Shown here piece after piece: positions 12,086-18,920 of a DNA stretch of 64,000 bases. The notes below the pieces were generated by a model. It was not told where the DNA came from and ran no database searches. It saw only the letters and a program-made list of their open reading frames with translations. Position 1 is the first letter of the stretch; each line of letters begins with the position of its first letter. Both the position numbers and the translations under genes were made by a program. Origin of the DNA: Candidatus Bathyarchaeota archaeon (lineage in GTDB: Archaea > Thermoproteota > Bathyarchaeia > Bathyarchaeales > Bathycorpusculaceae); the NCBI GenBank assembly GCA_022865885.1, contig JALHSQ010000134.1, positions 1 through 64,000 of the forward strand. The letters run 5' to 3'.

Positions 12086-12895
12086 TCATCTGAACATTAG
12101 GCTTACGAGAGTCCAAATGATGTCACCGGAGAATAGGGCAACGATCAGACCTACTGTGATCAGGATGAGCATCGGTAGACCGGGGCTTGCCCAGACACCA
12201 TCTTCGATTGCTCCGCTCTTTACTGCATTTGCTAGTCTATCCACTATTGCGTTTCTGCCTTGATCCTTTGGTAGGACAATCAGCTTTCTTTTTGGATTGT
12301 TCTGAACGTTTTCTTCGATGTCTTCCAGGGGGTATACGTGCCATTTTTCCTCTAGTTTGTTGATTGGAACCTTGTAGCCGGTGATCAAGACTAGAATTTT
12401 CTTTCCGACGGATTCTTTTGACTGGTTTCCTTCAAAGAGTCTCCTGCTTGTCTTCCAGCGCCAGTATATGTTGCGTGAGACTATCCATACTACAAGCGCT
12501 ACGACGAGGATTACGGCGTTGCTGAAGACTGTGAGTGGGAATAACATTCGTGAGATCGGCGAGACTTCCCAGAGTTTTGGCAGGAAAATGTTCTTAGGGT
12601 AGAACGGTAAGGCAAGGGCGAGGCACATGAGGGCTTTTGCGTCTGCTCCTCCAAATCCTCCGGAGTAGAAGAGTACTATTGCAAAAACGGCGGTTAGGCC
12701 GAAGCTTATGCCGTAGGGTACTAGTTGTGAAGGTTCATAGAGAAATAACCCTGTGAATGTGATAGCAAAGGCTGAAGGCGCAAGAAGAATCCAAACATGG
12801 TTGCTGACTTCGCGGGTTTTGTGGTCGCTCCAAGAAGCATAGATGAAGAAGATGAGGCAGAGAATTGTGGATGCGCTTTCGAGGATTTGCTGCAG
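12086..12895 (-). CDS. Archaeal prepilin peptidase (FlaK/EppA type), unusual start
   Basis: Membrane aspartyl protease that removes the basic leader of type IV prepilins. The frame encodes about 269 aa: a first membrane segment, SDHKTREVSN with Asp 24, then SGGFGGADAKALM with Asp 85. The 61-residue spacing equals that of the catalytic pair in Methanococcus FlaK (D18/D79). A cytoplasmic/linker part and a final membrane segment (about 240-262) follow. The first ATG of the frame is at 12628, after both catalytic residues, and no ATG, GTG or TTG precedes it before the in-frame TGA at 12902-12904. I place the start at CTG 12895, which has GGTGA about 7 nt upstream. Deleting one C from the CCCC run at 12898-12901 would instead bring GTG 12905 into frame. 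Last gene of the pilus locus. Confidence 0.82.
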   Translation of the reverse strand: MQQILESASTILCLIFFIYASWSDHKTREVSNHVWILLAPSAFAITFTGLFLYEPSQLVPYGISFGLTAVFAIVLFYSGGFGGADAKALMCLALALPFYPKNIFLPKLWEVSPISRMLFPLTVFSNAVILVVALVVWIVSRNIYWRWKTSRRLFEGNQSKESVGKKILVLITGYKVPINKLEEKWHVYPLEDIEENVQNNPKRKLIVLPKDQGRNAIVDRLANAVKSGAIEDGVWASPGLPMLILITVGLIVALFSGDIIWTLVSLMFR

Positions 12896-12934
12896 ACGGG
12901 GTCACCGGTGAGATGGAATGTACGTGTAGACGTT

Positions 12935-13360
12935 TTAAGGTTGTTCGTTGATCAGCATGGCGTAGCCTGATTCTGTTATGATTTTGAAGTAGTATCTTGT
13001 TCCGCTTGTCCATGATTGGGTGATGGTGAAGGTGTTTGATGAGTGTGATGCGACTAGTTGTGGGAGTTGTGGTGATACTGTTGCTGTTGTGAGGTTTGTT
13101 TGTGAGGTTCCTATGTATATTGCGACGATTTTTGAGTCTGATGTGCCTGTGCTCCTTAGCACTACGGTTATTTTGTCTCCTTGGTTGAATGTGACGAGTT
13201 CTACTACTAGTTCTTCGCCTGCTTTTTGTGTGAGGCTGCCCATGTAGGTCATTATCCAAGCGTAGGTGACGGTTATGGCTGCGACCGCTATAACGATTAA
13301 CAGTAGCGTGGCTAGAATCGGAGATATTCCTTTCGTGGGTCTTAATGCTCTTTTAGTCAA
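12935..13360 (-). CDS. Archaeal type IV pilin
   Basis: A 141-residue prepilin. The N-terminus has a short basic leader ending in KG, followed by ISPILATLLLIVIAV, the classic archaeal pilin class III signal with cleavage after Gly 12 and a hydrophobic helix that packs the filament core. The remainder is a small beta-rich, Thr/Ser-rich head. ATG 13360; a TATA-like TTAAATAA (minus strand, about 13402-13410) lies about 45 nt upstream, giving this gene its own promoter. The prepilin peptidase frame begins about 40 bases downstream. Probably the major pilin because it is smallest and separately promoted; that is inference. Confidence 0.88.
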   Translation of the reverse strand: MTKRALRPTKGISPILATLLLIVIAVAAITVTYAWIMTYMGSLTQKAGEELVVELVTFNQGDKITVVLRSTGTSDSKIVAIYIGTSQTNLTTATVSPQLPQLVASHSSNTFTITQSWTSGTRYYFKIITESGYAMLINEQP

Positions 13361-15619: not shown

Positions 15620-17317
15620 TTAGAAGCTCACTAGCAACGGGAGTGCTTTGGCTGCTAGCACGGCTATTATGACTAGTATGGCTGAGTGTTTGAAGCCTGC
15701 TGATATTGATTCTTCTGCTATTTTTCCTCCTACAAGCCCTATGAGGTAGCTGTGAAAGATTGTGGCTGTGGTGAAGGTTGTGATCATTGATGCCATGTTG
15801 CCGGTAGGACTGGTGCCTCCTACGATTAGGGTTTTTCCCGTGAACGTGATGATCATTATTGTTGTTGTGACGAGCATGATTGAAGCGAAATAGGGCATAA
15901 ACACATATGGGCGAACTGCCATTTTCTTCTCTCTATCAACCTCTTGAGTTAGGTTGTTGAATCTTGCAATAGACTCAATCATTTCAATAGTGCCGCCGCC
16001 GACGTCAATCGTTTCCACGAGGAGGAACATTACTAGCTGTGCCATCCAGCTTTTCGTTCTTTTTACGAAATCCATTATGACTTTCTTTGCTGGGATTCCC
16101 CAAGAGATGTCTGAGCTTATTTTGCGTAGTTCCTTGCTGAATGCTGAATAGTCGCGGTCTGAAAGGCTTTCGATGCACTTCTCAGGAGACAGACCTGTTT
16201 TTCTGACTTCGGTAAGGTCTCTCAGAAAGCTGTTGATGCCTTGCTCCGTGCCTTGTTTCTTGGCGGCAACTTTGCTGTTCACTGCCGCAGCTGGCGCTAC
16301 CGTTATGAAGAGGGCTATTGCGGTTGCCACTGGTAGGTCAATGACTGACCTGAGCGAACTGAAGAAGGGTACCTCTATGAAGCCGACGAAGTTCGTCATT
16401 AAGAGGAATAGTGGAAAGGCTATTGCGATGCATGCTCCGAAGATTTTGTATGGTCGCATTTCTACTAGGGGAGTCTTGGGTTGCATGCCGTGAGCCATGT
16501 AGATGAACATTAGTGAGAGCATTGGCATCAGCAAGTACGTGTAGAGGATTATGCTTGAGGACATTGAGATGCCTGTGCTGTAGAGAGAGTCAACGCTGAA
16601 TAGGATGTAGAAGCATAGCGACATTAGCACCATTACGATTATGAAGGTTTCCAATAGCATGCCAAGTCGTTCAGCTGCAGCCTTAACACGCATTGCTCTT
16701 ATTCTGAAAATATCTTCAGATTTTCGTTCGAGAAAGTGGCTGATGTCTCCTCCTATGATGACTGTTGAGGCGTATCCTGACAGGAAATCCTTGAATATGT
16801 CTAGCGGGTTTCGCTTTGCTGCATTGCCGATTGCTGTTAATGGGTCTGTTCCGAAGATTTCGACATCCTTTGTAATATCTCTTGCCTCAACTTGTACTGC
16901 AGGCATGAGGTCTATTTCTGAGAGTCGCTTGAAGCTTGTGTATGGAGAGATGCCTCCGGAGGCCATTACGCTGATGTAGGCGGTTGCGAATGGGACTTCC
17001 CGTTCCAGGTTGCTGGCTCTTTCACCTGCTCTTGACATTGGAACTAATAGAAATCCTATCATCACGTAGGATGGTAGTGGGATCAGGAAGATGATGGGGA
17101 TGAAGAAGTAGAAGTATAGGACTACTATGGATATTATTGAGACGGGAACTGTTAGTGCTGCAATGAAGAACATTAGAGAGACGTATGTCTCTGGGTAAAT
17201 CTTGATTCGTGCTCTATCAAGGTAAATCCTGAATCCTGTCACGCGTTTCAGAAAGGAGGGTGCTATACCCCCGAAGATTCGAAAGGCTAGAGTTTCAAGG
17301 GTGTTGAGCAAGGGCAA
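15620..17317 (-). CDS. Archaeal TadC/FlaJ-type pilus platform protein
   Basis: A 565-residue polytopic protein of the type II/IV secretion F family, the inner-membrane platform around which the ATPase drives pilin assembly. Two copies of the T2SSF-like cytoplasmic domain are visible: residues about 100-215 (GDISHFLERKSEDIFRIR near 190) and 360-470 (GIPAKKVIMDF, ETIDVGGGTIEMIESIARF). Hydrophobic segments occur at about 50-95, 220-285, 300-350 and 480-565. The start ATG 17317 lies 23 bases inside the ATPase gene, so the two are coupled. Standard length for archaeal FlaJ/PilC-like proteins. Confidence 0.9.
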   Translation of the reverse strand: MPLLNTLETLAFRIFGGIAPSFLKRVTGFRIYLDRARIKIYPETYVSLMFFIAALTVPVSIISIVVLYFYFFIPIIFLIPLPSYVMIGFLLVPMSRAGERASNLEREVPFATAYISVMASGGISPYTSFKRLSEIDLMPAVQVEARDITKDVEIFGTDPLTAIGNAAKRNPLDIFKDFLSGYASTVIIGGDISHFLERKSEDIFRIRAMRVKAAAERLGMLLETFIIVMVLMSLCFYILFSVDSLYSTGISMSSSIILYTYLLMPMLSLMFIYMAHGMQPKTPLVEMRPYKIFGACIAIAFPLFLLMTNFVGFIEVPFFSSLRSVIDLPVATAIALFITVAPAAAVNSKVAAKKQGTEQGINSFLRDLTEVRKTGLSPEKCIESLSDRDYSAFSKELRKISSDISWGIPAKKVIMDFVKRTKSWMAQLVMFLLVETIDVGGGTIEMIESIARFNNLTQEVDREKKMAVRPYVFMPYFASIMLVTTTIMIITFTGKTLIVGGTSPTGNMASMITTFTTATIFHSYLIGLVGGKIAEESISAGFKHSAILVIIAVLAAKALPLLVSF

Positions 17318-18920
17318 TAGCCATTACCTCCTCTCCAGCGACAACTCTCTCGTAAATCTGGCTTGGTTTAGCGTAATACTCGGCAATTATTGCTGCAACG
17401 TCCTTGTAGCTTCTGATGTTGCGTTCTCGCATCCAGTGCAGAACCTCTTTGCGCCTCCCTATTTCTTCAAGCAGTTCCTTCTTGCTTACTCCTGTGAGAT
17501 CAGAGATTGACGCAAGCATCACGCTTTTGTCAATCGTTTCCACGTATTCGTCTTTTGTCGGGTGCCACTTGAAAATGCTCTTGTAATCTTCGTAATCGGC
17601 GATCTCGCTGACGGCGATCACACGTCTATAGGCTTTTCTTTCGCCACGTTTGATGAGGTGAACCCTTTGAATCGACAACATAACATTCATCAGAGGTAGA
17701 TAAGCTGGCGATATGTCCATAGGCTTCTGGGTTAAACGCTTTATGGCTGAGTCCATATTCTCAGCGTGCATGGTGCACATGCCACCGTGGCCTGTGGCTA
17801 AGGCCTGGAAGAGTACGTATGCTTCTTGTCCTCTAACCTCGCCCACGATCAGTACGTCTGGTCTGTGTCTCATTGAGGTTTTTACAAGGTCGAATAATGG
17901 CACTTCGCCGATTGTGTTTCCTAGGCCGTAGCTTTGTCTGGCGATTAGGGAAACCCAGTTGTCGTGAGGCAAGTTGAGCTCGGCTGTTTCTTCTATTGTG
18001 ATTATTTTGCTTCCAGGCTTGATTAGGCAGGCTAGGGCGTTTAGAGCTGTTGTTTTTCCTGCGGCTGTTCCACCGAGGATCATTATTGATGCTCTGTTTT
18101 CGAGGCACATCCAGAAGTAGGCTGCCATTTCTTCTGAGAAGGTGCCTATGTTTATCAAGTCGATTATTGAGTATGGATCTTCTCTGAATTTTCTGATGGT
18201 GAAGGCGGTTCCGAAAGGTGTGACTTCACGTCTGTAGCATACTGCTAGTCTGTGCTTTCCTGGTAGTGAAGCGTCTACTATGGGGAAGGCTGAGCTGACG
18301 TGTTTTCTCGCCATGTGGACGAGTTTGACAACAATGTTGTCTAGTTCTTCGTCGCTTTCCATTTCGATGTTTGTTTCGATGCTTTCGTAGTTTCTGTGCC
18401 AAATGTAGATGGGTTTCTTTACCCCGTCGCAGGAGATGTCTTCGATGTTGGGATCTCGCATTAGTGCGTCGATTTTGCCGGAGCCGACGAGGTCTCGTTC
18501 GGCGTGGTAGAGGATTTTGTACCATGAGACGTCTGGCAGCCAGCCTAGGCTTATGCGGTATTTGTCCACGATTTTTTTTGCTTCCCTTGTGAAGAATCCT
18601 CTGGGGTCGTCAACTTCTCCTTTTGGGGCTTCTATTTCTGCGAGAAGTATGTCGAGTACTCGTTTGTAGATGGTTTTTTCAAGCGAGTCTAGTTGCAACT
18701 CGTCCAGTATGTATTTGTATTCGCCTGTTTTTGGGTTTTGGGCTATTACGACGTGTGCGAATGGCTCGAAGAGGGGGTATTTTTCGATGACTTTGTAGCC
18801 TCTGGGTATGGGTCTTGAGGGGGCTGCTGGGATCGTTGCCTGCTTTTGTTTTGGGCGGTTGACCTTAATTCTGGTCTTCTTTAGCTTGGCAAGCGTTTCT
18901 TTGAGTCGCAGCTTTGGCAT
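17295..18920 (-). CDS. Type II/IV secretion ATPase (TadA/FlaI/GspE family)
   Basis: A 541-residue cytoplasmic hexameric motor for pilus assembly. Walker A GGTAAGKT at about residues 283-290, Walker B DVLIVGEVRG at 355-364, an aspartate-box region ITIEETAELNLPHDNWV at 307-323, and a histidine box GHGGMCTMHAE near 378-387. The first 120 residues are basic and Pro-rich, then an N-terminal domain that contacts the platform. The next gene overlaps by 23 bases. The upstream neighbour is the large surface protein, 74 bases away on the same strand, so one transcription unit is likely. Confidence 0.93.
   Translation of the reverse strand: MPKLRLKETLAKLKKTRIKVNRPKQKQATIPAAPSRPIPRGYKVIEKYPLFEPFAHVVIAQNPKTGEYKYILDELQLDSLEKTIYKRVLDILLAEIEAPKGEVDDPRGFFTREAKKIVDKYRISLGWLPDVSWYKILYHAERDLVGSGKIDALMRDPNIEDISCDGVKKPIYIWHRNYESIETNIEMESDEELDNIVVKLVHMARKHVSSAFPIVDASLPGKHRLAVCYRREVTPFGTAFTIRKFREDPYSIIDLINIGTFSEEMAAYFWMCLENRASIMILGGTAAGKTTALNALACLIKPGSKIITIEETAELNLPHDNWVSLIARQSYGLGNTIGEVPLFDLVKTSMRHRPDVLIVGEVRGQEAYVLFQALATGHGGMCTMHAENMDSAIKRLTQKPMDISPAYLPLMNVMLSIQRVHLIKRGERKAYRRVIAVSEIADYEDYKSIFKWHPTKDEYVETIDKSVMLASISDLTGVSKKELLEEIGRRKEVLHWMRERNIRSYKDVAAIIAEYYAKPSQIYERVVAGEEVMAIALAQHP

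Follow-up and report, generated by a model that had tools for sequence, protein, structure and literature searches.

A prepilin peptidase gene of Bathyarchaeia that probably starts at CUG, in a family where near-cognate start codons appear to recur

The window analysed here, a 64,000-nucleotide stretch from a Candidatus Bathyarchaeota archaeon, carries what appears to be an intact archaeal prepilin peptidase gene whose translation would start at the CUG codon at 12895 on the minus strand, by near-cognate initiation of low efficiency. We assign this reading a probability of about 0.88. The reading frame, the position of the start codon within its family, the Shine-Dalgarno sequence and the recurrence of the arrangement in other genomes are all read directly from the nucleotide sequences. 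CUG appears in three lineages, and the use of AUA, AUC or AUU (AUH) in one further genus, g12, would be an unexpected recurrence of near-cognate initiation in the same gene.

Judged from its sequence, the peptidase (269 aa, 12086..12895, minus strand, with the stop codon TGA at 12086-12088) is an ordinary member of the FlaK/PibD-type archaeal prepilin peptidases and is predicted to cleave prepilins. It matches the Pfam families PF01478 Peptidase_A24 (2.6e-12, 47.6 bits, cut-off 26.5) and PF06847 Arc_PepC_II (2.3e-19, 70.2 bits, cut-off 29.9), as well as FlaK in the PDB (3S0X, 1.2e-10), where the aligned catalytic aspartates are chain residues 25 and 86. The first catalytic residue, Asp24 (in SDHKTRE, codon at 12824..12826, minus strand), stands in a column that is invariant in 113/113 homologues, while the second, Asp85 (in GFGGAD, codon at 12641..12643, minus strand), is invariant in alignment A1, aligns with the GGGD of FlaK and lies in a GxGD-type motif, here GGAD. 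The initial annotation had pointed to this pair and to a spacing of 61 residues as in FlaK, and the alignment to 3S0X confirms both. Similar to FlaK, PibD and EppA (Peptidase_A24, MEROPS A24B) in its domains, its aspartate pair at 61 residues and its type of locus with pilins, T2SSE and T2SSF, the window peptidase differs from them only in the initiation codon. The gene is present as a single copy in the genome of 2.64 Mb (240 contigs).

The peptidase is encoded together with pilus genes. Upstream of it lies a pilin-like gene with a TTG start (12935..13360, minus strand), which has no Pfam match but whose N-terminus, MTKRALRPTKGISPILATLLLIVIAVAAITV, resembles a class III signal peptide; its product is a probable substrate of the peptidase. 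A T2SSF/TadC-like pilus platform protein with a TTG start (15620..17317, minus strand; PF00482, 3.7e-25) and a T2SSE/PilB3-like secretion ATPase (17295..18920, minus strand; PF00437, 7.9e-36) are also present in the window, and many relatives likewise have T2SSF close to the peptidase. In the T2SSF genes of the window and of the loci L201-L224, the same AGGAGGT stands at the same spacing in most cases, and the TTG start, weak as it is, is kept unusually strictly. The T2SSF frame of locus L270 (genome G072) contains an in-frame TAG, and its match is limited to residues 77-563.

The peptidase frame, which begins LQQILESASTILCLIFFIYASWSDHK (12895-12086, minus strand), is bounded upstream by an in-frame TGA at 12904-12902, followed by the codons CCC CGT CTG CAG CAA ATC. 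No ATG, GTG or TTG occurs in frame between this TGA and the internal ATG at 12626..12628 (minus strand), as had been stated in the initial annotation. A protein starting at this ATG would be a fragment of 180 aa, and this is the only standard open reading frame of the frame in the window according to a mechanical list, and the truncation to 180 aa that the annotation had expected would indeed be made by gene callers accepting only ATG, GTG and TTG. Since Asp24 and Asp85 both precede the internal ATG, the fragment contains neither catalytic residue. Alignment of related loci, which the same annotation had proposed as a check, showed that the first catalytic aspartate is included in each of the 113 homologues, and a start at the internal ATG 12628 is thereby ruled out.

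The homologue set comprised 113 Bathyarchaeia loci, almost all of the window's order and none of its genus, and each locus was positioned by its first catalytic aspartate, which aligned in every one of them. The codon 23 positions before this aspartate was ATG in 40 loci, TTG in 20, GTG in 14 and CTG in five (n = 113), and it is precisely here that the window has its CTG (12893..12895, minus strand). Standard start codons thus fall at the CTG column in 74/113 homologues, and NTG codons in 79/113, a concentration that other columns come nowhere near. As CTG accounts for 2.3% of nearby codons, its background frequency is low, and its position exactly at the start column of the family is not a matter of chance. 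In the window's own family, the start column is usually followed by CAG or CAA, and GGTG often stands about 6-7 nt upstream. The window itself has GGTGA at 12902..12906 (minus strand), 6 nt before the CTG and at a position conserved in relatives; the 3' end of the 16S rRNA of the same genome, GGATCACCTCCT, is complementary to it, which makes GGTGA a five-base Shine-Dalgarno sequence. A ribosome-binding site here had been suspected at a spacing of about 7 nt. Both the in-frame TGA and an out-of-frame GTG (12905) lie within this GGTGA. The AUC codon three codons past the CTG is ruled out as a start by its distance from the Shine-Dalgarno sequence (about 15 nt) and by the start column. On these alignments, CTG 12895 is almost certainly the start of the peptidase.

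A usable standard start is missing from 9/113 genomes on a strict count that includes the window, and from 11/113 when the loci L132 and L127 are added. Two of these genomes share the CTG arrangement, namely G005 (JdFR-07, MTLU01000019.1; 56% identity, different genus), which reads GGTGA CTATCC CTG, and G155 (different family, a single contig of 1.9 Mb), which reads GTGTGA CCAGAA CTG. In both, two codons separate a TGA from the CTG, whose distance to the aspartate equals that in the window. G005 has no standard codon at all before the aspartate, and the sole one in G155 is a TTG seven codons ahead of it, within the first membrane helix. The protein tree pairs G005 with G014 as sisters (TTG start, locus L014; support 100/99) and places the window on a separate branch, while the loci of the same family as G155, L177 and L172, have ATG. 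Because close relatives of G005 and G155 have standard starts, the CTG start would most simply have arisen three times independently. The remaining CTG codons at the column belong to L120 and L132, g12 loci that start three codons upstream.

In genus g12, the loci L120, L121, L125, L128, L133 and L136 have no ATG, GTG or TTG from 32 to 16 codons before the aspartate, while L132 and L127 each have only a poor standard candidate, an ATG within the conserved region and a GTG overlapping its own ribosome-binding site, respectively. All eight genomes carry an AUH codon 26 codons before the aspartate, three codons upstream of the CTG column (ATA in L120, L132 and L136; ATT in L121 and L125; ATC in L127, L128 and L133), and AGGAG, GGTG, GAGGT or GGAGG precedes it at an aligned spacing of 6-8 nt. 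From this codon onward the peptide is conserved, mostly as I-Q/E-T-L-Q, with freely varying third bases, and the codons preceding it are unconserved. The assignment of the AUH codon as the start is supported by L135 (sister to L132) and L126, which have GTG and ATG, respectively, at the same codon. A block resembling ACCGACAAAATCTTAT, conserved in six g12 loci (L120, L125, L128, L132, L133 and L136), lies about 45-60 nt ahead of the AUH codon and probably represents the BRE/TATA promoter from which the peptidase is transcribed. Some g12 genomes (G011, G066, G068, G069, G077, G078, G091 and G095) are without a close peptidase match and carry instead one to three distant A24-like relatives of about 30% identity.

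The near-cognate effect is largely specific to the peptidase gene. Across 21 stretches, 20 from relatives and one a part of the window, a standard start at the conserved N-terminus was missing from 10/21 peptidases versus 5/194 other conserved frames, counted after removal of shadow ORFs (Fisher 1.8e-8), a test that compares genes within genomes and estimates no rate, because the sample is enriched for affected genomes. The five other frames comprise one pseudogene, two borderline cases and two pilins. In 28 genomes picked to cover all affected ones, T2SSF has TTG at its start column in 24/24 with an alignable N-terminus, and the start of GlmM is standard in 27/27. Among distant relatives (haloarchaea, Methanosarcinales, Archaeoglobaceae and others), a standard start is available to the peptidase in 57/57, and it is often GTG. 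As for pilin genes, one in G014 (L273:3843-4701, plus strand) is without a standard start and carries ATA behind GGGGGGAAGTAAA; at that place the G006 relative has ATG. The orthologous pilin of G087 (L267:5099-5966, plus strand) has no ATG, GTG or TTG before the class III cleavage motif and might start at ACG behind GGGGGAT; the peptidase of the same genome appears to start at ATA.

In the mechanism that we propose, the GGUGA sequence would recruit the 30S subunit to the peptidase mRNA, and the initiator Met-tRNA would pair imperfectly with CUG, which is presumably read as methionine. The product would probably be Met-QQILES... in low yield, and low output, tolerated or even favoured, may suit a catalytic enzyme that serves abundant pilins. 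The same gene seems to have taken near-cognate starts repeatedly. Switches of this kind are very rare in annotated prokaryote genes (PMC5622118), yet several occur in one gene, suggesting either selection for weak initiation or a relaxed need for strong initiation, and we regard these two as near even.

One account, to which we give slightly less than an even chance, keeps the CTG start but makes its spread neutral: Bathyarchaeia would tolerate near-cognate codons behind a good Shine-Dalgarno sequence, and such codons would drift in where little protein is needed. General tolerance could indeed explain part of the pattern, given the TTG of T2SSF and the two pilin genes that may start at ATA and ACG, and the g12 start codons end variably in A, C or T, as codons at a free isoleucine site do. 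However, the 194 neighbouring frames almost always retain a standard start, and G at the third base occurs in 0/8 of the AUH genomes, although AUG is one base change away. A further proposal is that near-cognate codons hold the gene under weak translation as a selected dial which keeps the protease scarce relative to its pilins. This dial, possibly sensitive to aIF1/aIF2 levels, would be an archaeal counterpart of infC and sigR control, and we regard it as rather unlikely.

Initiation at CTG was one of two options raised in the initial annotation, and the start column, the Shine-Dalgarno sequence and the two further lineages speak for it; the other, a GTG at 12905 hidden by an error or a frameshift, did not hold up. 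If an extra base had been called in the CCCC run at 12898-12901, one C fewer would bring this GTG into frame (MTRLQQIL...), and the window does rest on a single metagenome-assembled genome. But the CCCC run is absent from the leaders of G005 and G155, where the CTG-only arrangement persists, GTG 12905 sits within the Shine-Dalgarno sequence and would be without one of its own at the usual spacing, and relatives with ordinary TTG or GTG starts (L002, L003, L026 and L130) likewise hold an out-of-frame GTG 10 nt upstream. A miscall is therefore very improbable. A programmed +1 frameshift, in which a leader begun at GTG is joined to the peptidase frame, is more improbable still. In its favour, a GTG precedes the CTG by 10 nt in each of the three CTG lineages, but these have no slippery sequence in common (ACCCCGT, ACTATCC and ACCAGAA), and the ATA, ATC and ATT members would need another explanation. 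In relatives with ordinary starts the GTG stands at 8, 9, 10, 11 or more nt and in all three frames, so it is most plausibly a piece of the ribosome-binding site. Together with this variable frame of GGTG, the CTG loci without CCCC (L018 and L170) led us to reject error or frameshift at the run. Decay of the gene, in which the true start has disappeared and the product is at most the 180-aa fragment, would account for the missing standard start but is equally remote, as the full-length frame is free of stops with all catalytic and conserved residues intact, the single copy adjoins a pilus locus, and the same state is kept in several divergent lineages.

Evolutionarily maintained near-cognate starts are known from a handful of bacterial genes. 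The gene infC, encoding IF3, starts at ATT in E. coli and at ATC in Streptomyces (PMC5472188); like the g12 peptidase, it has kept a near-cognate start whose third base varies between lineages, but it is autoregulated by bacterial IF3. Archaeal aIF1 resembles the C-terminal domain of IF3 (PMC7531240). In Streptomyces, sigR starts at GTC in 32/34 species and at GTT in two, and its annotated GTG sat inside the AGGAGGTG ribosome-binding site that precedes the actual GTC start (PMC5472188). The peptidase is similar in that its rare start follows a strong ribosome-binding site with a GTG inside it, here GTG 12905 in GGTGA. Unlike sigR, which is bacterial, experimentally proven and confined to one genus, it is archaeal, appears to have several independent origins and is deduced from sequence. 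Switches to CUG and AUU have been recorded before but are extremely rare, with two CUG and one AUU among 61,358 ancestral AUG starts (Belinky 2017, PMC5622118), whereas the peptidase family alone has CUG in three lineages and AUH in one clade. As with infC and sigR, we found no usable standard start, a Shine-Dalgarno sequence (here at 6 nt) and recurrence across species.

No archaeal case of a maintained near-cognate start was found in the open-access papers searched and, as far as these show, what is new here is the recurrence of near-cognate initiation in an archaeal gene family, of both the CUG and the AUH type. Gene callers restricted to ATG, GTG and TTG would drop or truncate a protease that is predicted to be functional. 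If real, the family would offer a natural series of AUG, GUG, UUG, CUG and AUH at or near one site, by which the fidelity of archaeal start selection would become testable.
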